32,563 nucleotides of DNA from Actinomyces israelii DSM 43320 (GTDB taxonomy: Bacteria; Actinomycetota; Actinomycetes; Actinomycetales; Actinomycetaceae): NCBI RefSeq assembly GCF_000711965.1, contig NZ_JONS01000022.1, positions 1 to 32,563 of the forward strand, written 5' to 3'. A program made the translations under genes and the position numbers. The notes below the pieces were generated by a model. It saw nothing but the letters and a program-made list of their open reading frames with translations, made no database searches and had not been told where the DNA came from. Shown in pieces: positions 9,298 through 32,563 of this stretch; position 1 is the stretch's first letter; each line of letters starts with the position of its first letter.

Positions 9298-9816
9298 ATG
9301 CCTATGGCTCTGTCGAAGAAGCTGCTCAGCCGCGACGAGGTCGTGGTGCGGCACATGCACACCCACATCAAGCTCCTCCTGTGGAGGATCATTCTCGAGG
9401 TCGTGCTGCTCGTGGCCGGCGTCGTCGGCTCGGTGCTGGCTCCGGCCTCGTGGTCCCCCTGGAGCCTGATCGGCATCTGGGCGGTGGTGCTGGTGGTGAG
9501 CGTGCCGCTGCTCATCGTGCCGTGGCTGCAGTGGTACACCCACACCTACACGGTCACCACCAAGCGCATTATCACCCGCTCCGGCGTCCTCAAGCGGGTG
9601 GGCCACGACCTCCCGCTGACCCGGATCTCCGACATCCAGCTGGACAAGGATCTCACCGACCGCTTCTTCGGCTGCGGCACCCTCGCGCTGCAGACCTCGG
9701 CCGACGACCCGCTCCTCCTGCACGACGTGCCCCACGTGGAGGTGGTGCAGGTCGAGATCTCCAACCTGCTCTTCAACGACGTCCAGGGAGCCATCGACGC
9801 CGACCCCCGCAGCTGA
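9298..9816 (+). CDS. PH-domain (bPH2/YdbS-like) membrane protein
   Basis: A 172-residue protein with two hydrophobic helices (about 28-48 and 56-75), followed by a bacterial PH-like domain. The stretch YTVTTKRIITRSGVL (about 84-98) and LPLTRISDIQLDKDLTDRFFGCGTL match the conserved strands of the bPH2 (former DUF304) family. The family is common in actinobacteria and its function is unclear; membrane localisation is expected. Start ATG 9298; ATG 9304 two codons downstream gives MALSKKLL, a typical beginning for this family, and is a real alternative. No strong ribosome site is visible, so a short-leader or leaderless message is possible. It converges with ahpD. Confidence 0.88.
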   Translation: MPMALSKKLLSRDEVVVRHMHTHIKLLLWRIILEVVLLVAGVVGSVLAPASWSPWSLIGIWAVVLVVSVPLLIVPWLQWYTHTYTVTTKRIITRSGVLKRVGHDLPLTRISDIQLDKDLTDRFFGCGTLALQTSADDPLLLHDVPHVEVVQVEISNLLFNDVQGAIDADPRS

Positions 9817-9867
9817 ACCGGCAGCAGGTGCGCGGGCCGATGCGCCCGGAAGGCCGGTAGTCCCGCG

Positions 9868-10398
9868 TCACCCCAGGGTCTCGACGACGCCGATCGCCTG
9901 GGCGACGCCCTGGATGGTCGCGGCGATGCGCACGGCCTCCCACACCTGCTCGGTGGTCAGGCCCTCGGCGCGCGCAGTGGCGTCGTGGGAGGAGACGCAC
10001 TTCTCGCAGCCGTTGATGGCGGACACCGTCAGGATCCACAGCTCGAAGTCGACCTTCTCGACCCCGCCGGCCGAGCCGATGATGTTCATGCGCAGGCCCA
10101 CGCGCTCGTTGTCGTAGTCGCCGCCCAGGAAGTGGCGGGTGCGGTAGGCGACGTTGTTCATTGCCGTGATCGCGGCGGCGCCGAGCGCGGCGGAGCGGGC
10201 CTGCTCGCTCAGGTGATCGCGGGCCTCCTCAGCGACCTGCACCAGGACGGACTCGTTGCGGGTGGCGGCGGCCGCGGCCAGGAAGGCGCCCCACTGCTGC
10301 TGCTCGGTCAGCGTGGTGGCGCGGGTGAGGCTGGACAGGTTCAGCGAGAGGTCCTTGGCCCAGTCGGGCAGGGCGGAGCGCAGGGTGGCGATGGTCAT
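9868..10398 (-). CDS. ahpD: Alkyl hydroperoxide reductase AhpD-type protein
   Basis: A 176-residue carboxymuconolactone-decarboxylase-fold protein that in mycobacteria passes electrons from the dihydrolipoamide system to AhpC. The redox centre is clear: E119, C131, C134 and H138 in the pattern E-x11-CEKCVSSH, matching the positions known in Mycobacterium tuberculosis AhpD almost one for one. AAGGAA lies upstream of ATG 10398. It follows ahpC on the same strand after 110 bp, so the two are probably co-transcribed from the ahpC promoter. It acts in the cytosol against organic peroxides and peroxynitrite. Confidence 0.95.
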
Positions 10399-23707: not shown

Positions 23708-23775
23708 GAGATCGGTCGTATTCCGGCTCGAGATCGGTCCTACGACCGATCTCGACGCGGAAGTGAACCGATCTC
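23708..23775. repeat. Inverted pair of 22-nt repeat arrays forming a 68-nt hairpin after topA
   Basis: Two minus-orientation units are followed by two plus-orientation units. The inner stem pairs TCGAGATCGGTC (23728-23739) with 23744-23755 around a CTAC loop, and the outer stem pairs GAGATCGGT (23708-23716) with 23767-23775; a 5-bp stem links them. It begins five bases after the topA stop, so it may end topA transcription or protect the mRNA 3' end, though there is no T-run. Confidence 0.8.
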
Positions 23776-23785
23776 GACGGGCGGC

Positions 23786-23839
23786 GTCGCAGACCTGCGA
23801 CAACACGGCGACAGGGCCGGGCCACGCAATCGGTAGTGT
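23786..23839 (+). promoter_or_regulatory. Candidate response-regulator operator and promoter of the DUF3060-regulator-kinase operon
   Basis: GTCGCAG (23786-23792), 2 bp, CTGCGAC (23795-23801), 4 bp, CGGCGAC (23806-23812): one inverted half-site, then direct half-sites exactly 11 bp apart, as OmpR-family regulators prefer. TAGTGT at 23834-23839 fits a -10 element, 28 bp from the start of the last half-site. The same arrangement recurs at 28204-28257. Confidence 0.55.
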
Positions 23840-23883
23840 GTGCTCCGCACAAACGCCCCAGCTGATTCCCGAGAGGAACTCAC

Positions 23884-24474
23884 ATGCGTCTTCCCAAGAC
23901 CGCTCTTGCCGGTACCGCCGCTCTGGCCCTGACCCTGTCCCTGGGGGCCTGCTCGCTGTCCGTCAACGGCTCCGACTCCGCCGCCACCGCCTCCCCCGCG
24001 GCCTCCCAGGCCCCGCAGGCGGACGCCGGCTCCGGTGCCGCGGCCGGCACCGACGGCCCGACCGTCAAGGGCGCCACAGCCACCAGGGACTCCGAGGACA
24101 AGGAGGACGCGGACGGCAAGAAGGACTCCGACGGCGACGACGAGAAGGCTCCCGTCACCGACCCGGCCTGGAAGGAGATTGTCGACACCGGCGAGCGCAC
24201 GGAGGTCTCCGGCGCCTACTCCGTTGCGGACGCGGGCGCGACCCTCAACCTGGTGGGCGACCTCGAGACCCTGACCATCCAGGGCGCCGGCGCCAAGGTC
24301 GCCGCCGAGAACGTCGGCACCCTCATCGTCCAGGGCTCCAACGTCGTCGTCTATGCTCGCGACATCGACCACGTCCAGATCCAGGGCGCCGGCGTCACCG
24401 TCCACTGGCTCGGGGACGACCCCGACATCCAGGACCAGGGCGCCGACAACACCACCGGAAGGCTCACCCAGTGA
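23884..24474 (+). CDS. DUF3060 lipoprotein (paralogue 1)
   Basis: A 196-residue secreted lipoprotein. The signal peptide ends in the lipobox LGAC, so Cys23 is expected to be lipidated. A charged Asp/Lys/Ser/Ala-rich linker covers about 30-95, then a DUF3060 domain (about 100-190) of short repeating beta strands: ATLNLVGDLETLTIQGAG, VGTLIVQGSNVVVYARDIDHVQIQGAG, VTVHWLGDDPDIQDQGADN. The regular spacing suggests a small beta-solenoid. GAGAGGAAC precedes ATG 23884. It heads an operon with a response regulator 28 bp downstream and a kinase overlapping that. DUF3060 has no settled function; a cell-surface sensor or accessory protein for the short-loop kinase is my inference. Confidence 0.88.
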   Translation: MRLPKTALAGTAALALTLSLGACSLSVNGSDSAATASPAASQAPQADAGSGAAAGTDGPTVKGATATRDSEDKEDADGKKDSDGDDEKAPVTDPAWKEIVDTGERTEVSGAYSVADAGATLNLVGDLETLTIQGAGAKVAAENVGTLIVQGSNVVVYARDIDHVQIQGAGVTVHWLGDDPDIQDQGADNTTGRLTQ

Positions 24475-24502
24475 ACCCAGAAGGCTCCGCAGCGAGGCCC
24501 GT

Positions 24503-25246
24503 GTGACCCGGCCCGCCGCACCGCTCCCCCCGCCCGCCGCGCCGTCCGCCACGGTCCTGCTCGTCGACGACGAGGCCCCGATCCGCCGCTCCCTGGGCCC
24601 CTACCTGGAGCGCAGCGGCTACCGGGTCATGCCGGCGTCGGACGGCGCGGAGGCCCTGGAGCTCCTGGCCGCCTACGAGATCGACATTGTCGTCTCCGAC
24701 GTCCTCATGCCGCGCATGGACGGGCGGGAGCTGGTGCGGCGGGTGCGGGCCGGCGGCGCCTGGACCCCCATCATCCTGCTCACCCAGGTCGATGCCTCCT
24801 ACGAGCGGGTCTCCGCCCTGGACGACGGCGCCGACGACTACCTGTCCAAGCCCTTCGACCCCGCCGAGCTCGCCTCCCGCATCCGGGCGGTCCTGCGCCG
24901 CACCCGGGGGACCGGGCAGCCCCTGACCGCCGCGACCCGCCTCGTGTCCGGCGACCTCGTCCTGCACCGGCCGGCGCGCCGCGTCGAGCTCCGCGGCCGC
25001 GAGTTCTCCCTGACGCCGAAGGCCGTGACGCTCCTGGACTACCTCATGAGCCACCCCGGCGAGCTCCACACCCGCGACGCCCTTCTGTCGGCCCTGTGGG
25101 GCATCGACTTCGCCTCCTCCACGCGCGCCGTCGACCACCGCGTGCGGGAGATCCGCCGGGTCCTGGGCGACGACGCCTCGGCCCCCGCCTACATCGAGAC
25201 CGTCCCCTCCGTGGGGTACCGCTTCCGCGCCGAGGTCCACGCGTGA
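24503..25246 (+). CDS. OmpR-family response regulator of the DUF3060 operon
   Basis: A 247-residue two-component regulator. The receiver domain (about 17-130) has the acidic D22/D23 pair, phospho-acceptor D66 in VSDVLMPRMDG, LTQVDA as the Thr region and the lysine in YLSKPF. The winged-helix domain (about 150-243) includes FSLTPKAVTLLDYLMSHPG and STRAVDHRVREIRRVLGD, the recognition-helix region. GTG 24503 was chosen to place the receiver near the N-terminus after a Pro/Ala-rich leader. Its stop overlaps the kinase start as GTGA. The direct-repeat operators at 23786 and 28204 are plausible targets, which would make it autoregulatory and a controller of the OmpA-like and hydrolase genes. Confidence 0.92.
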   Translation: MTRPAAPLPPPAAPSATVLLVDDEAPIRRSLGPYLERSGYRVMPASDGAEALELLAAYEIDIVVSDVLMPRMDGRELVRRVRAGGAWTPIILLTQVDASYERVSALDDGADDYLSKPFDPAELASRIRAVLRRTRGTGQPLTAATRLVSGDLVLHRPARRVELRGREFSLTPKAVTLLDYLMSHPGELHTRDALLSALWGIDFASSTRAVDHRVREIRRVLGDDASAPAYIETVPSVGYRFRAEVHA

Positions 25247-26223
25247 GACGGGACGGCGCGGACCGGTCGTCCTCGGAAGGGGGCTGGCCGGCCCGCCGCG
25301 CCCTGGCCGGGTGGGCCGTCGCCCTCGGGGCCGCGGTCGTGCTCACCGCGGTCAGCTGGCTGCTGTGGGGCGACCTGAGCCTGCGGGTGACGGCCTCGCC
25401 CGCGCTGGTGGTCGGCGAGATCCTGGCCGCCGCCCTCCTGGTCGCCCTGGCAGTGGCCGTCGGCCGGCGTCGTCGGGAGGCCGCGCTCCGGCGGGTGCGC
25501 CTCCAGGTCCAGGAGGAGGCGCGCACGCAGCACCGCCAGTTCCTGCGGCGCCTCGACCACGAGCTCAAGAACCCGCTGACGGCGGTGCGCGCCGCCGTCG
25601 CCGACGCCTCGCGGGGCGCGTCCCCCGCCATTGCCGTCAACCTCGAGGTCGTCGACGCGCAGTCCCGCAGGATGAGCCGGCTGCTGACCGACCTGCGCAA
25701 GCTCGCCGAGCTGGAGGCGGCGCCCCTGGCCCTGGAGGACGTCGACCTGGCCGAGACGGTCCAGGACGCCGTGACCGCCGTCATCGAGGAGGCCGCCGGG
25801 CGCGGGGTCGCCGTGCGCATCCGCCTCGACCTGCCGTCGGCCCCCTGGCCCCTGCCGCACGTGCGCGGCGACGGCGACCTCCTCTACTCGGCCGTCTACA
25901 ACATCGTGTCCAACGCGGCCAAGTACACCCCCGCCGGCGGGGCGGTGGAGGTGCGCGGCCGCGAGGAGGGCGGCGCGGTGACGATCGAGGTCGCCGACAC
26001 GGGCATCGGCGTGCCCAAGCGGGAGATGGGGCTCGTCTTCCGCGAGCTGGGCCGCGCCGGCAACGCCCGCGCCCTGCCCGGCTCCGGGCTGGGCCTGCCC
26101 CTGGTGCGCACGATCGCGCAGCGCCACGGCGGGAATGTGGGCATGGCCTCGCGCGAGGGCGTGGGCACACGCGTGTGGCTCGTGCTCCCGGTGGCGGGCC
26201 CTGGTCCCGCGAGAGCCGCCTGA
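25243..26223 (+). CDS. Short-loop (intramembrane-type) sensor histidine kinase
   Basis: A 326-residue kinase translationally coupled to its regulator (GTG 25243 overlapping TGA). Two helices (about 21-42 and 54-74) flank only about ten outside residues, so there is no extracellular sensor domain, as in intramembrane-sensing kinases such as LiaS or BceS, which rely on partner proteins. HisKA contains LRRLDHELKNPLTAV with phospho-acceptor H106; the N box (YNIVSNAAKYTP), G1 (VADTGIGVP) and G2 (GSGLGLPL) boxes are intact. No HAMP domain is evident. The lipoprotein that heads the operon is the obvious candidate partner. It converges with the hydrolase gene, 36 bp apart. Confidence 0.92.
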   Translation: MRRDGADRSSSEGGWPARRALAGWAVALGAAVVLTAVSWLLWGDLSLRVTASPALVVGEILAAALLVALAVAVGRRRREAALRRVRLQVQEEARTQHRQFLRRLDHELKNPLTAVRAAVADASRGASPAIAVNLEVVDAQSRRMSRLLTDLRKLAELEAAPLALEDVDLAETVQDAVTAVIEEAAGRGVAVRIRLDLPSAPWPLPHVRGDGDLLYSAVYNIVSNAAKYTPAGGAVEVRGREEGGAVTIEVADTGIGVPKREMGLVFRELGRAGNARALPGSGLGLPLVRTIAQRHGGNVGMASREGVGTRVWLVLPVAGPGPARAA

Positions 26224-26259
26224 GCCCGCGATCTCGGTGAAAAGGGGCGGGTCCGGGCG

Positions 26260-28155
26260 CTACTTCGCGAGCCCCTCGGCGACGTCGGCGGGCAGCGGGT
26301 CGATCGGGCAGCTCGCGCCCTCGTCGGGCAGCGCGCCATCGACCAGGTAGTCGCTGACGCGCGAGACGGCGCACGTGTTCGACAGGGAGGCGCCGTGCTC
26401 GTAGCCCTCGACGGTGAGCAGGTGCCCGGCGTCGAGCTGCGAGGCCAGGGACCGGGCCCACGAGTAGGGGGTCTGGGAGTCCCCGTCGACGCCGACGACG
26501 AGGATCGGCGCCGAGCCGGAGGCGTGGACCTCGGCCGGCGCGGAGCTCGCGGTGACGCCCCAGCCGTGGCAGTAGGCGTCGGTCCCGGCCGGCAGGGAGC
26601 CCATGGCGTTCATGAGCGGGTAGTCCTCGGCGGACTTCGCGGCCTCCGCGTTCCAGGTGGCCTGGTCGGCGACATCGGGCGAGTCGGCGCAGATCACCGC
26701 CGTGTAGGTCATGGCGTATGACGCCTCCTGCTGCGACGCCGGCTTTGAGATCTGCCCCGCGCCCGGGGCCAGGGCGCCCACGCGCGCGAGCTCGGTGCCG
26801 TCGTGCCGGCTCATCGCCTGGGACAGCGCCCTGGTCAGCGCGGGCCAGTACTCGGGCCGGGCCAGCCACAGGTTCTGCGCGTGGTTGAAGGCGGTCGCGG
26901 CGTCCATCCGGCCGGTCCGCCCGTCCGTCTGGGTGATGGTGAGCGGCTCGGTGCCCAGGCCCTTGAAGAAGGCGATCAGCTGGGAGACGGCGTCGTCGAC
27001 GGTGCCGGTGAGCGGGCAGCCCGCCTGCCCCAGGCAGGACTCGAGGTACGCCCGCGCCCGGCCCTCCCGGTAGGTGAGCTGGGTGTCGGCCACCTCCGTG
27101 CGGGTCAGCGCCGGGTCCTGGGCGCTGTCCAGGATGACGCGCCCGACACTGCCCGGGAAGAGCTCGGCGTAGGCGCTGCCGATGACGGTGCCGTAGGAGT
27201 AGCCGAGGTAGCTGAGCCGCTCGTCGCCGACCGCGGAGCGCAGGACGTCGAGGTCGCGGGCCACGTCGAACCTGCCCATGTGGTCGATGAGGCCTCCGAC
27301 CTCGGAGTAGGTCCGGCAGGCGTTGGCGTCGGCGGTCCCCTTGGCTGCCGTCGACGTCCAGAAGATGCCGTCGATCTTCGGGGTCGCGGTGGCGTCGCCC
27401 GACGGCGGGGTCTCGGCGCCTGCCGTCGGCGGCGCGGTGGCGTCGGGCGTCGGGGAGGCCTCGGTCTCCTCTGGGACCGGGCTGGGATCGGCCGCCGGGA
27501 CCGCGCTGATGCCCGACGCCGGGGCCGGAGCGGCGCCGTCGTCGACACTTCCGCCGGGCGGCGCCGCGTCACCGGCCACGCCGCCGCTCTGCGCGACCTC
27601 GTCGGCGTCCCAGCAGGTCAGGCGGGTCGAGTCACCGACGCCGCGCGGATCGAAGCCGACCAGGTCGTAGGAGGCGAGCATCTCGGGGGTGTACGAGGCG
27701 GCGGCGGTCGCGACCATGCCGGTGCCGCTGCCGCCCGGCCCGCCGGGGTTGAGGAACAGGGAGCCGAGCTCGGCCGTGCCGTCGGAGGCCGGTAGGCGCC
27801 TGAGGGCGATGGAGATGGTCTCGCCGTCGGGATCGTCGTAGCTCAGCGGGACGGTGGCGGTGGCGCACTGGTAGCCGTCCGCGCCGTCCGCGCAGTCGGC
27901 CCAGCTGAGCTCCTGGTCATAGAAGGTCTCCAGGCCCGCCGGGGCGCCGCCCGATGGCGAGTCCGGCGAGCCGCCTGCCGCTGGGTCGCCCGCGGACGGG
28001 TCGGATCCCGTCTGCGCGCCGGGCGGTCCCGACTCGTCGTGCGCGCCGTCGGGGCCCGCCGGACCCGGCCGGCAGGCCGTCAGGGCGGCGCACAGGCTGA
28101 GAGCCGCCAGCGCCGCTGCGGGACGCCTGAGACAGAATCTCCAGGCTGACGTCAT
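26260..28155 (-). CDS. Secreted alpha/beta-hydrolase lipoprotein (tripeptidyl-aminopeptidase-like)
   Basis: A 631-residue lipoprotein: signal peptide with lipobox LTAC (Cys28), then a Gly/Pro/Ser-rich linker to about 70. The hydrolase domain has the oxyanion region LNPGGPGGSG (about 136-145), nucleophile S320 in GYSYGT, and a C-terminal TAP-like region with D559 (VDGDSQTP) and H587 (GYEHG), a complete triad. This layout is that of Streptomyces SlpD/SlpE-type tripeptidyl aminopeptidases. A Pro/Ala/Thr-rich insert of about 75 residues (190-262) interrupts the core before the nucleophile. It probably trims peptides outside the membrane. A possible -10 TACTTT sits 7 nt before ATG 28155, suggesting a leaderless message. 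It shares its promoter region with the OmpA-like gene. Confidence 0.9.
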   Translation of the reverse strand: MTSAWRFCLRRPAAALAALSLCAALTACRPGPAGPDGAHDESGPPGAQTGSDPSAGDPAAGGSPDSPSGGAPAGLETFYDQELSWADCADGADGYQCATATVPLSYDDPDGETISIALRRLPASDGTAELGSLFLNPGGPGGSGTGMVATAAASYTPEMLASYDLVGFDPRGVGDSTRLTCWDADEVAQSGGVAGDAAPPGGSVDDGAAPAPASGISAVPAADPSPVPEETEASPTPDATAPPTAGAETPPSGDATATPKIDGIFWTSTAAKGTADANACRTYSEVGGLIDHMGRFDVARDLDVLRSAVGDERLSYLGYSYGTVIGSAYAELFPGSVGRVILDSAQDPALTRTEVADTQLTYREGRARAYLESCLGQAGCPLTGTVDDAVSQLIAFFKGLGTEPLTITQTDGRTGRMDAATAFNHAQNLWLARPEYWPALTRALSQAMSRHDGTELARVGALAPGAGQISKPASQQEASYAMTYTAVICADSPDVADQATWNAEAAKSAEDYPLMNAMGSLPAGTDAYCHGWGVTASSAPAEVHASGSAPILVVGVDGDSQTPYSWARSLASQLDAGHLLTVEGYEHGASLSNTCAVSRVSDYLVDGALPDEGASCPIDPLPADVAEGLAK

Positions 28156-28203
28156 GCTGAGAAAGTACCACGACGCGCGCGTCGCCCTCCGCCCGTCTCA
28201 TCT

Positions 28204-28257
28204 GTCGCAGGACGGCGACAGCGCGAGGACACCGCTGCGACATTCCGTTCGTAGGGT
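28204..28257 (+). promoter_or_regulatory. Second copy of the operator pattern, in the divergent hydrolase/OmpA-like promoter
   Basis: GTCGCAG (28204-28210), 2 bp, CGGCGAC (28213-28219), then CGAGGAC (28224-28230) and CTGCGAC (28235-28241), each 11 bp after the last. TAGGGT at 28252-28257 fits a -10 element, 17 bp from the last half-site start. That offset differs from the 28 bp at 23786 by exactly 11 bp, so the sites lie on the same DNA face. Transcription would start near ATG 28265, implying a leaderless message. Confidence 0.55.
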
Positions 28258-28264
28258 CGTCTCC

Positions 28265-29533
28265 ATGAACCACTCGATCCGCTTCCCCGCCGCCGGCCCC
28301 GGTGCGCGTCGCACGCGACCCGTCGCCTGCACGGTCCTGCTCGGGGCCGCCTGCCTCGCCCTGAGCGCCTGCGGCTCCTCGACGCCGGTGGCGACATCCT
28401 CCCCGCAGGCCGACGAGACCGCCCCGGCCACCGCCGTCGGCCCCGACCAGACTGCGGATGCGACGGAGTCGGCGACCGCGCCGACCGCGGCCGCCTCCGC
28501 CGGCGCGACGGCCCCCGGCTACGCCCCGGGCGAGGCGCCGCCCGTGCCCCTGTTCACCCTGCCCGACATGGGGCTGCTCGCCGCCGGGGACGGCGCCCTG
28601 ACATCCGATCAGACCGCCACCGTCGACTCCGTGCCCGGCGTCACCGTCTCCCCGGCCCGCTGCGACCAGTCCGGAGGCATCTCCGCGGGCTCCACCGGTA
28701 CCGTCCTGATCAGCGGCGGCCCGGCCGCCCCCGACAGCGGCGGCTCGACCGCCGGCGCCTCCTCCTCCGACGGCGGGGCGACCGTCGTCGACAATGGCAA
28801 CGGCTCCGGCTCCTACACGAATGGGACCACGAAGATCGTGACCAATGGCGACGGCTCAGGAACCTATGCGGATGCGACCCTGTCGGTGACCGTCAACACC
28901 GACGGATCGGGCACCTCCACCAACTCCGCCACCGGGGAGAGCATCGTGGTCAACAGCAACGGCTCGGGCTCCTACAAGCGGGGCTCCGTGAGCATCGTCA
29001 ATAACGGCGACGGCACGGGGAGCTACACGGACGGGGCGCTGTCCATTGTCAACCACGGCGACGGCACGGCGCTGGTCAACGGCCGGAGCACCGCCGCCAA
29101 GCCCCTGCCGCCGGTCGGCAAGGTCGGGTCCTTCCCTTCGATCGACGCCGTCAGGCCGGTGAAGTCCTGCGGCACCGCCATCTCCCTGGACTCCAGCATC
29201 CTGTTCGACGTCGACTCCTACCAGGTCCGCCCCGAGTCGAGCGAGCTGCTCAGCTCCCTGGCCCGGGTGCTCACCCAGGCCGGGGCCCCGAAGGCCACCG
29301 TGGCCGGGCACACCGACTCCGTCGCCGACGAGGCCTACAACCAGACCCTCTCCGAGCAGCGCGCCCAGGCCGTCGTCGACGCCCTGCGCGATGCCGGCGC
29401 CACCACCGAGCTCACCGCCGTCGGCTACGGGGAGACCCGGCCGGCCGCTCCCAACACCACTCCCGACGGCTCGGACGACCCTGCCGGGCGCCAGCTCAAC
29501 CGACGGGTTGAGATTATGGTTCCGGTCTTCTGA
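28265..29533 (+). CDS. OmpA/MotB-domain lipoprotein with Asn/Gly-rich repeat region
   Basis: A 422-residue lipoprotein in a Gram-positive. The lipobox is LSAC (Cys36). A Thr/Ala/Pro-rich region leads to a conserved segment (about 95-150), then about six repeats of 17-20 residues (about 176-277) with recurring NGDGSGSY/NGDGTGS motifs alternating with short hydrophobic strands (KIVTNGDG, SIVNNGDG, SIVNHGDG), which suggests a beta-solenoid. Residues about 304-422 are an OmpA C-terminal domain: SSILFDVDSYQVRP, VAGHTDSVADEAYNQTLSEQRAQAV, GYGETRP and NRRVEI, the peptidoglycan-binding signature. It probably ties the membrane to the wall. It is followed 135 bp later by a second DUF3060 lipoprotein on the same strand. 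Confidence 0.9.
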   Translation: MNHSIRFPAAGPGARRTRPVACTVLLGAACLALSACGSSTPVATSSPQADETAPATAVGPDQTADATESATAPTAAASAGATAPGYAPGEAPPVPLFTLPDMGLLAAGDGALTSDQTATVDSVPGVTVSPARCDQSGGISAGSTGTVLISGGPAAPDSGGSTAGASSSDGGATVVDNGNGSGSYTNGTTKIVTNGDGSGTYADATLSVTVNTDGSGTSTNSATGESIVVNSNGSGSYKRGSVSIVNNGDGTGSYTDGALSIVNHGDGTALVNGRSTAAKPLPPVGKVGSFPSIDAVRPVKSCGTAISLDSSILFDVDSYQVRPESSELLSSLARVLTQAGAPKATVAGHTDSVADEAYNQTLSEQRAQAVVDALRDAGATTELTAVGYGETRPAAPNTTPDGSDDPAGRQLNRRVEIMVPVF

Positions 29534-29668
29534 GCCGTGGCGGGCCGCGCCGGTTCGTCTGCGGACGGCCCCGGCGGACGGCCCAGCCACGGGCGCGCCG
29601 GCAACAGCGGGAGCACCCGCGCCGAGCACAAACCCCTGTCCACCTCACTTACCTGCAAGGAGCACGTC

Positions 29669-30400
29669 ATGACCGCTGCAAGCACCAGGAGCACTATCAG
29701 CGCCGCGAGCTCCGCTACCACCGTGAGCGCCGCCTCCGCGCTCTCAGCCGCCTCCGCCGTTGCCGACGCCGGCCCCATGCCGTCCCGTCCACGTCCTGCG
29801 CGCCGTCTGGTCGCCCTCGCCTGCGTCGTAGCGCTGAGCGCGGGTCTGGGGGCCTGCACGGTCAACCTGGACCGGGGCGGGTCGGCGGATTCGCAGGGCT
29901 CCGCGGGCGCCTCCTCCCACTCCGCCGCCGACCCGTCGCAGGAGTCCTCGGAGGATTCGGACGGGGACATGCCCACGCCGAGCGGCAGCCCAACCGCACT
30001 GCCTCCGCTGACGGACCAGGGAGGCACGGCGTCCCCCGATCCCGAGCGCCCGGGCGCGGGGGCCACTATCACCAGCAAGGAGTGGGTCCGCGCCCAGCAG
30101 TCCAGGGACAAGAAGACGATGACGCCGGACAACGGCCAGGTTGTTGTCGATCGCTCGTTCGCGACGGTTGTCATCGAGGGCGACGTGACGAACCTGACGG
30201 TGAGCGGCGAGCATGTCACCGTCATTGTCGACTACGCGCAGAACGTTATTGTCAACAGCAATTCCGCTGTCTATGTGCGCGACACCAAGAGCGTCACCGT
30301 CTCCAGCAGCTTCAGCACCGTGCTGTGGGCCGGCAACACTCCGCAGATCAAGGATCTTGGCGACCACAACACGATCAAGAACCAGGCCGAGGACGACTAG
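29669..30400 (+). CDS. DUF3060 lipoprotein (paralogue 2)
   Basis: A 243-residue lipoprotein with lipobox LGAC (Cys63). A Ser/Pro-rich linker covers about 70-130 and the DUF3060 domain about 145-240, with strand repeats VVVDRSFATVVIEGDVTNLTV, HVTVIVDYAQNVIVNSNSAV and SVTVSSSFSTVLWAGNTPQI. It keeps the same ending logic as paralogue 1 (WLGDDPDIQDQGADN against WAGNTPQIKDLGDHN). AAGGAG before ATG 29669 supports this start, but it puts 36 Ser/Ala/Thr-rich residues ahead of a normal signal peptide; ATG 29777 would give a textbook one but has no ribosome site. It lies downstream of the OmpA-like gene and is likely co-regulated. The 17-bp direct repeat begins in its last codons. Confidence 0.86.
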   Translation: MTAASTRSTISAASSATTVSAASALSAASAVADAGPMPSRPRPARRLVALACVVALSAGLGACTVNLDRGGSADSQGSAGASSHSAADPSQESSEDSDGDMPTPSGSPTALPPLTDQGGTASPDPERPGAGATITSKEWVRAQQSRDKKTMTPDNGQVVVDRSFATVVIEGDVTNLTVSGEHVTVIVDYAQNVIVNSNSAVYVRDTKSVTVSSSFSTVLWAGNTPQIKDLGDHNTIKNQAEDD

Positions 30401-30633: not shown

Positions 30634-30725
30634 AACGTGAACGTACCTTTGCAACACCGACGTACCTTTCTCCCATCCTACTGACCTCTGCCCCCAGTAG
30701 GATGGGAGAAAGGTACGTTCACGTT
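30634..30725. repeat. 24-bp perfect hairpin with an additional directly repeated arm
   Basis: 30660-30683 is the exact reverse complement of 30695-30718 (24 bp, 11-nt loop). In addition 30634-30650 (AACGTGAACGTACCTTT) is the exact reverse complement of 30709-30725 (17 bp). ACGTACCTTT thus occurs at 30641 and 30660, 19 bp apart, plus once inverted, so two exclusive hairpins can form. No T-run follows. Confidence 0.9.
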
Positions 30726-30882: not shown

Positions 30883-30948
30883 CGAGATCGGTCGAGTTCC
30901 GCGTCGAGATCGGTCCGGTTCCGCGTCGAGATCGGTTCAGTCCTGTGT
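30883..30948 (-). repeat. 22-nt intergenic repeat array (three units, minus orientation)
   Basis: CGAGATCGGT starts units at 30883, 30905 and 30927, exactly 22 nt apart, separated by TTCCGCGT-type sequence. This is the reverse complement of the family seen elsewhere. Confidence 0.88.
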
Positions 30949-32471: not shown

Positions 32472-32482
32472 GAATATGCTTT

Positions 32483-32563
32483 CTGGACCGATCTCGGTGC
32501 GGGACTGGACCGATCTCGGTGCGGGACTGGACCGATCTCGGTGCGGGACTGGACCGATCTCGG
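32483..32563 (+). repeat. 22-nt intergenic repeat array, at least 3.7 units, running off the window
   Basis: Units start at 32483, 32505, 32527 and 32549 and are identical over the whole 22 nt (CTGGACCGATCTCGGTGC plus four bases), making this the most homogeneous array seen. It begins just after the CHAP gene stop and continues beyond the right edge. Confidence 0.93.

Follow-up and report, generated by a model that had tools for sequence, protein, structure and literature searches.

A Four-Unit Direct-Repeat Promoter Array Beside an OmpR-Family Two-Component System and Envelope Lipoprotein Genes in Actinomyces israelii and Its Relatives

Introduction

The AfsQ1/AfsQ2/AfsQ3 system of Streptomyces, as described in PMC6988585, PMC9739842 and PMC8999054, comprises a regulator, a kinase and a lipoprotein, with sigQ as a target and with 11-bp GTnAC-n6-GTnAC repeats. 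In this paper, we describe a system of similar build in Actinomyces israelii DSM 43320, in a stretch of 32,563 nucleotides (contig NZ_JONS01000022.1; the whole stretch is called "the window" below). Two promoters in it, P1 and P2, carry pentamers repeated every 11 bp, and an OmpR-family response regulator and a sensor histidine kinase are encoded between them, among genes for envelope lipoproteins. We think it likely that the regulator binds P1 and P2, which are copies of one promoter-operator, and so activates its own operon and the adjacent lipoprotein genes.

How close is this to what is already known? The likeness to AfsQ lies in the genes (OmpR-family regulator, kinase and lipoprotein), in the 11-bp direct repeats and, for relatives of our system in the Anaerolineae, in a sigma factor of the extracytoplasmic function (ECF) type as the target. 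The difference, which sets AfsQ1 apart by description, lies in an array of four units held in fixed register with the -10 element, in its Actinomyces letters GTCGC/GCGAC and in the adjacent lipoprotein genes as proposed targets. The spacing of GTnAC-n6-GTnAC is present here; its letters occur in the first two units of 16 aligned Chloroflexota sites and not in the Actinomyces GTCGC/GCGAC.

CseA/CseB/CseC-SigE of Streptomyces, in what parts of PMC9739842 and PMC8999054 say of it, shares with our locus a lipoprotein-regulator-kinase operon, autoregulation and a cell-wall theme, and its sigma output is like that of the Anaerolineae version. Our regulator, however, scores 164 bits with the CseB model NF041733 (cut-off 350), and no sigma gene was seen in the window's module. 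MtrA/MtrB/LpqB is also OmpR-family and has a related kind of direct-repeat sites (PMC13189361, in part). Against it stand 152.2 bits with NF040689 (cut-off 300) and a regulon that is narrow and local here. PhoB and PhoP are activators placed over the -35 region. Their pho boxes are 11-bp direct repeats too, with GTTCACC in the PhoP units (PMC6988585, in part). They differ from our sites in half-site sequence and regulon, and the PhoB model gives 160.9 bits with our regulator against a cut-off of 296.2. In LiaFSR of Bacillus, the kinase has, as ours appears to, little extracytoplasmic domain and is joined by an accessory envelope protein, LiaF; LiaR is a NarL-type regulator and ours belongs to the OmpR family. 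Among the best 25 of 100 NCBIfam families, our regulator passes no curated cut-off, RpaB coming first with 169 bits (cut-off 330). Among the titles and abstract openings listed for Actinomyces two-component systems, actinobacterial direct-repeat regulators, Chloroflexi ECF sigma control, ECF271 and ECF234, intramembrane-sensing kinases with LiaF, and operators shared across phyla, there is no description of this system.

Results

The features on which the argument turns are these:

23786 to 23839, plus strand: operator-promoter P1, called from its sequence, an exact genome-wide match, a model built without the window's sites (E 1.8e-7) and first rank in the window with a Chloroflexota matrix; half-sites GTCGC 23786-23790, GCGAC 23797-23801, GCGAC 23808-23812 and degenerate GGGCC 23819-23823; -10 element TAGTGT 23834-23839
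28204 to 28257, plus strand: operator-promoter P2, called from its sequence, the model without the window's sites (E 2.1e-9) and second rank with the Chloroflexota matrix; half-sites GTCGC 28204-28208, GCGAC 28215-28219, degenerate AGGAC 28226-28230 and GCGAC 28237-28241; -10 element TAGGGT 28252-28257
24503 to 25246, plus strand: response regulator of the OmpR family and a candidate for binding P1 and P2 (Pfam, orthologues, tree, putative recognition helix)
25243 to 26223, plus strand: sensor histidine kinase (Pfam HisKA and HATPase_c; hydropathy)

A sequence-only reading of this DNA had claimed half-sites and TANNNT -10 elements for both promoters, and a check of the sequence finds them there. 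Both promoters have the form pentamer-N6-pentamer-N6-pentamer-N6-pentamer-N10-TANNNT, in which the pentamers begin at 0, 11, 22 and 33 and TANNNT begins at 48. The same reading had the distance to the -10 element differ by exactly 11 bp, which is not so once the arrays are put in register: from the first pentamer, it is 48 at both (23786 to 23834 and 28204 to 28252). The apparent difference arose because P1 has a strong third and a degenerate fourth unit and P2 a degenerate third and a strong fourth, and so different half-sites were measured. A scan for TTGACA-type sigma-70 promoters found none at P1 or P2.

The genome scan that the sequence-only reading had proposed singles out these two places. 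Exact matches to GTCGCAGNNCKGCGAC in the 4.03 Mb of the organism's own genome are confined to 23786 (on both strands, the site being palindromic) and 28204; the pattern read backwards has none. A matrix of Actinomyces sites gives 46.6 and 41.2 for the two sites of the window, both of which were in its training set, and at most 3.0 for everything else in the window. The best match in the genome after P1 and P2 (G000:C2:198934-198980, in locus L193; E 3.2e-4) is missing its first half-site and is followed, ~150 bases on, by a binding-protein-like lipoprotein gene; it is probably chance. An inverted-repeat operator of the TetR or CRP kind was also considered for the 16-bp core and rejected, because GTNAC-type pentamers are near-palindromic in themselves and the array as a whole repeats directly, with a period of 11.

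Within the genus, sites were picked by positions 0-15 alone, with at most two mismatches, which gave 65 matches in 34 loci (L069-L080, of the same genus, were left out of the analysis). Those in the two promoter places (54) and the window's two make up the 56 Actinomyces sites; the other 11 matches were not taken, being cores before extra gene copies (L034; L047, two overlapping; L060) and seven others inside loci. In the 56 sites, registers 22 and 33 emerge, and TANNNT stands at 48 in 43 sites and at 49 in 12, which makes 55 of 56, the exception being P2 of L062. Since only the first 16 positions were used for picking, these registers and the -10 spacing are independent of the selection. At P1, 97% of sites keep the form G..RC in the third unit and 47% in the fourth; at P2, the figures are 85% and 92%. 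The 56 sites form a 54-column matrix, which therefore includes the window's two (model R1 and the Chloroflexota matrix, used below, exclude them). By this matrix, no locus of the 34 lacks a site (at least 34.0 bits) and 23 have two or more, most of these sites having trained it. L060 has a full array (46.7 bits) before its second DUF3060 gene.

The array keeps company with the regulator. Among 49 Actinomyces genomes, 35 have an orthologue of the regulator at 78% identity or more; G011 and G042, which match it only at 39%, were classed as being without it. A sequence-only model, R1, was made from 36 sites of 23 loci, none from the window. With it, all 35 genomes that have the regulator give E of 6.1e-6 or less (12 of them, the window's own among them, contributed no site to the model), and the 14 without it give 0.012 or more. 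All R1 matches with E below 1e-5 sit at the regulator locus (49 genomes; matches listed to E ~0.12), and some weak match at E of 1 or less is present in every genome. Perfect GTCGCAGNNCTGCGAC palindromes, 27 in 17 of these genomes, are without exception at the regulator locus. The pattern of the sequence-only reading has 42 places: these 27 and position 28204 at the locus, and 14 elsewhere, all CGGCGAC variants, which look like chance. The core GTCGCN6GCGAC is found 53 times in 35 locus sequences (~584 kb), and every copy is 5' of the regulator operon, immediately after the kinase gene or ahead of an OmpA-like or second DUF3060-like gene. The sequence-only reading would have fallen if orthologous promoters lacked the half-sites; the 11-bp array is conserved in them.

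Outside the genus, we compared 41 regulator loci, at 50-72% identity, from other Actinomycetaceae, Microbacteriaceae, Actinotalea, Phycicoccus, Brevibacterium and Chloroflexota. The array adjoins the regulator in 36 of these (16 of 18 in Chloroflexota): 35 were found with the 54-column matrix at 14.8-48.5 bits, and L085 was added with the Chloroflexota matrix (29.6, against a reversed-sequence maximum of 5.6). As controls, reversed loci (77) reach at most 11.6 bits and the loci of distant paralogues at most 8.3 (0 of 41 with an array); there was one false match of 17.5 bits, in L067, a locus without the regulator, and it looks like coding sequence. Five loci found later gave three clear sites (27.7-32.2 bits), one borderline site and one without. 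The -10 element of L081-L083 (Microbacteriaceae) seems, by inspection, to lie one 11-bp unit further away.

The comparison also runs in the other direction. A matrix of 15 Chloroflexota sites, passed over both strands of the window, ranks 23786 first (-7.8) and 28204 second (-7.9), with -17.2 next; the scores are negative and usable for ranking only. Of the 34 Actinomyces loci, 30 have its top match on a known site, 3 have it displaced by one 11-bp unit and 1 has it elsewhere. Registers 0, 11, 22 and 33 are found again in the 16 Chloroflexota sites. In a scan of 17 Chloroflexota genomes (17 of the 18 loci; L101 left out), with a model that included these sites, 15 have exactly one site at E of 0.1 or less, that of the locus, and 2 have none. 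The regulator itself is rare and patchy: of 394 genomes sampled from the class, 6, its own included, have it at E of 1e-65 or less, a distribution that would fit horizontal spread.

What of the proteins? The sequence-only reading had placed an OmpR-family regulator between the two sites, and Pfam agrees: Response_reg scores 102.7 bits (cut-off 30.2) and Trans_reg_C 79.7 bits (cut-off 26.2), the combination that defines the OmpR/PhoB family. Its claim that the pattern is of OmpR type holds as well, in that direct-repeat half-sites at 11-bp spacing are found in the 56 Actinomyces and 16 Chloroflexota sites, to which this protein would bind. In a tree of 89 rows, array-bearing regulators fall into one group of 75 (70 with the array and 5 without), set off by a long branch from 14 distant paralogues; its support, 92/98, is just short of the tool's star, and the tree left out 27 of the 41 distant paralogues. 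In the stretch that we take, by its place in OmpR-family structures, to be the recognition helix, at least 90% of the 35 Actinomyces rows have TRAVDHR, at least 90% of the 18 Chloroflexota rows have TRTVDTR, and the 41 distant paralogue rows mostly have SNSLDVYV (L107, with a split regulator match, is absent from tree and helix table). Residue 212 of the window's regulator is His in the actinobacteria and Thr in Chloroflexota and tracks GCGAC versus GTNAC half-sites. It may set the half-site letters, which, from two phyla, is a lead only; two groups with His212 (Brevibacterium and L162) are without a clear array.

The N-terminus of the kinase (~residues 19-76) is hydrophobic, by hydropathy in overlapping windows, and includes a short loop; HisKA follows, and Pfam shows kinase domains only. 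The protein appears to have almost no extracytoplasmic domain and may be an intramembrane-sensing kinase, a class marked by two transmembrane segments, a very short loop between them and no further input domain.

The genes behind the array differ among lineages. Of the 15 Anaerolineae loci in which a frame was called downstream of the site, 13 have an ECF sigma-factor gene there, with the site between it and the kinase gene. These sigma factors were recognized by eye, and the one put through Pfam, in L087, has Sigma70_r2 and Sigma70_r4_2. The site there is as follows:

L087, 6724 to 6781, plus strand: one of the 16 aligned Chloroflexota sites, which are mostly before ECF sigma-factor genes; behind the kinase gene, with a TA-type -10 element

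The first ATG follows the -10 element by 6 bases in 9 of the 13 sigma-factor loci, and we predict that these genes are leaderless and transcriptionally controlled. In L100 and L101, a secreted-protein-like gene takes the place of the sigma factor. Outputs in other lineages are DUF3060-like or OmpA-like, a lipoprotein without a Pfam match (L151) and, by eye, VWA-like lipoproteins (L249, L250). Two loci deserve separate mention. L102:8590-8700 (Actinotalea) has two back-to-back arrays, one towards an OmpA-like gene and the other towards a small membrane-protein-like frame on the opposite strand. In L162:2560-5570, the regulator is preceded by three consecutive OmpA-like genes, of which two have a reduced array, GTATC-N6-GCGAC, whose -10 element is ~49-50 bases on, and the third has a GTTGC-N6-GCGAC core.

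In the window, the gene order 3' of topA is DUF3060 lipoprotein, regulator, kinase, hydrolase (on the opposite strand), OmpA-like lipoprotein and second DUF3060-like gene:

23884 to 24474, plus strand: DUF3060 lipoprotein (Pfam DUF3060, alignment, beta-solenoid model; lipobox predicted)
26260 to 28155, minus strand: TAP-like alpha/beta hydrolase lipoprotein, a neighbour only and not part of the core (Pfam Abhydrolase_4 and Abhydrolase_1)
28265 to 29533, plus strand: OmpA-like lipoprotein with GDGSG-type repeats (Pfam OmpA; model; Foldseek)
29669 to 30400, plus strand: second, divergent DUF3060-like lipoprotein (pairwise match to the first; gene order in relatives)

The order topA, DUF3060, regulator, kinase, OmpA and second DUF3060 recurs in many of the 34 Actinomyces loci, with some genes gained or lost: no upstream DUF3060 gene was detected in L039, L064 and L065, nor an OmpA match in L063, and L056 has only OmpA fragments. 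The first ATG comes 7 nt after the -10 element in 19 of 26 Actinomyces P2 sites, and likewise before the window's OmpA-like gene, so a leaderless mRNA is predicted; the second DUF3060-like gene probably shares this transcript.

The sequence-only reading had counted two DUF3060 lipoproteins. The first stands (PF11259, 31.4 bits against a cut-off of 23.1), and its Cys23 is invariant in 44 aligned rows. The second was not called by Pfam, there being no match even on the longer frame 29537-30400, and is better described as a divergent homologue of the first (29% identity, pairwise E 1.5e-12). The DUF3060 domain is confidently predicted to be a beta-solenoid (residues ~104-193, block pLDDT, a measure of model confidence, 91-98). 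Against the PDB, the model had no significant match (best E 0.099), and we therefore assign no function from the fold. The OmpA-like protein (PF00691, 65 bits against a cut-off of 27.2) is modelled with short strands in its repeat region; for its C-terminal domain, Foldseek gives YfiB/OprF/Pal-type domains (best E 2.4e-9).

The hydrolase, which had been counted as a member of the set, does not belong to it: of 35 loci, just 3 have it between the kinase and OmpA genes (the window's, and L033 and L034 from near relatives), and no array faces it, the best minus-strand score there being -4.6. We have rejected it as part of the module.

Two further observations concern the surrounding DNA. At 30661-30718, 3' of the second DUF3060-like gene, there is a long near-perfect inverted repeat (GTACCTTTCTCCCATCCTACTG ... 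CAGTAGGATGGGAGAAAGGTAC). A ACCGATCTCG-type element occurs in intergenic DNA in dispersed and tandem copies, at 23710-23780, 30883-30940 and 32480-32563.

Discussion

We suggest that the kinase, which likely senses the state of the membrane or wall, perhaps via a lipoprotein, phosphorylates the adjacent regulator, and that the phosphorylated form would bind the four-half-site array, possibly as two dimers side by side. It would then sit at about -60 to -23 (if the -10 element begins at -12, as is usual), where a consensus -35 was not found. The units so activated would be its own operon (DUF3060 lipoprotein, regulator and kinase, hence autoregulation) and the OmpA-like and second DUF3060-like genes. 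In other lineages, the same regulator-array pair would drive another adjacent output: an ECF sigma factor in many Anaerolineae and other lipoproteins in other actinobacteria.

Some of our results weigh against this proposal. Because array and regulator sit in one locus, their co-occurrence is partly co-inheritance. Within Actinomyces, L035, L038, L044, L045, L046 and L059 show the first operator only; the extra OmpA copy of L034 and the extra DUF3060 copy of L047 have weak cores only (11.0 and 11.7 bits); and in L066 (G014), the regulator match splits into two frames (~9402-10161, minus strand), which is decay or an assembly error, yet both sites are present. Outside the genus, the regulator is without a clear site in L092, L093 (contig ends soon after kinase), L094, L098, L162 and L251; L083, L100, L101 and L106 (14.8-17.1 bits) score below the false match of 17.5 bits and rest on position; and the borderline site, in L252, has 11.8 bits, about the maximum of the reversed controls. 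With the Actinomyces model in 19 genomes of other genera, the site of the locus is the best match in 12, a weaker match in 3 (G089, G159, G236) and missed in 4 (G232, G179 and two Brevibacterium genomes, these last two having no known site), with other weak matches present. The specificity of that model therefore falls outside the genus.

Might the regulator be a repressor instead, or act in a mixed way, with autorepression at P1 and activation at P2? The degenerate unit does differ between the promoters, as the frequencies of G..RC show, so that occupancy near the -10 element may differ. In both layouts, however, the array stops 10 bases short of the -10 element, never reaches past it and covers the place of the -35, which favours an activator that replaces the -35; we find repression, in whole or in part, unlikely. 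Less likely still is that some other regulator, for instance a global one like MtrA or GlnR, reads the array and that the local regulator is a mere neighbour. Direct repeats of the GTnAC-n6-GTnAC type are bound by several actinobacterial OmpR-family regulators (PMC6988585 and PMC13189361, in part), so such half-sites do not point to a single protein. But a global regulator should have many sites, and the strong matches of the genus scan are all at the regulator locus; moreover, the array accompanies the local regulator into Chloroflexota and is absent beside distant paralogues. That the repeats are chance, a dispersed repeat or a remnant of a terminator is hardly credible, for although loose matches are common in this high-G+C sequence (172 forward at two mismatches or fewer in the own genome, and 243 for the reversed pattern), the perfect palindromes and the GTCGCN6GCGAC cores are all at the locus and its module places, and the -10 spacing is conserved.

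Activation by the adjacent regulator from a shared array is thus the explanation we prefer, and it may extend further. We lean, if only somewhat, towards seeing here a portable sensory cassette of Actinomycetota and Chloroflexota, in which one kinase-regulator pair and one promoter in fixed register with its -10 element are kept, the downstream gene is swapped and residue 212 may set the letters. The conservation of this promoter layout across the two phyla is unusual.

A pair that remains recognizable over two phyla as its output changes would offer a route to the function of DUF3060 and other orphan envelope proteins, and it means that the target of an uncharacterised two-component system may be predictable from sequence alone. 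It would also provide a natural test set for the joint change of OmpR-family recognition helices and their half-sites. Finally, it predicts that many Anaerolineae ECF sigma factors are under transcriptional two-component control, a mode known for SigE and SigQ of Streptomyces (PMC8999054, in part).

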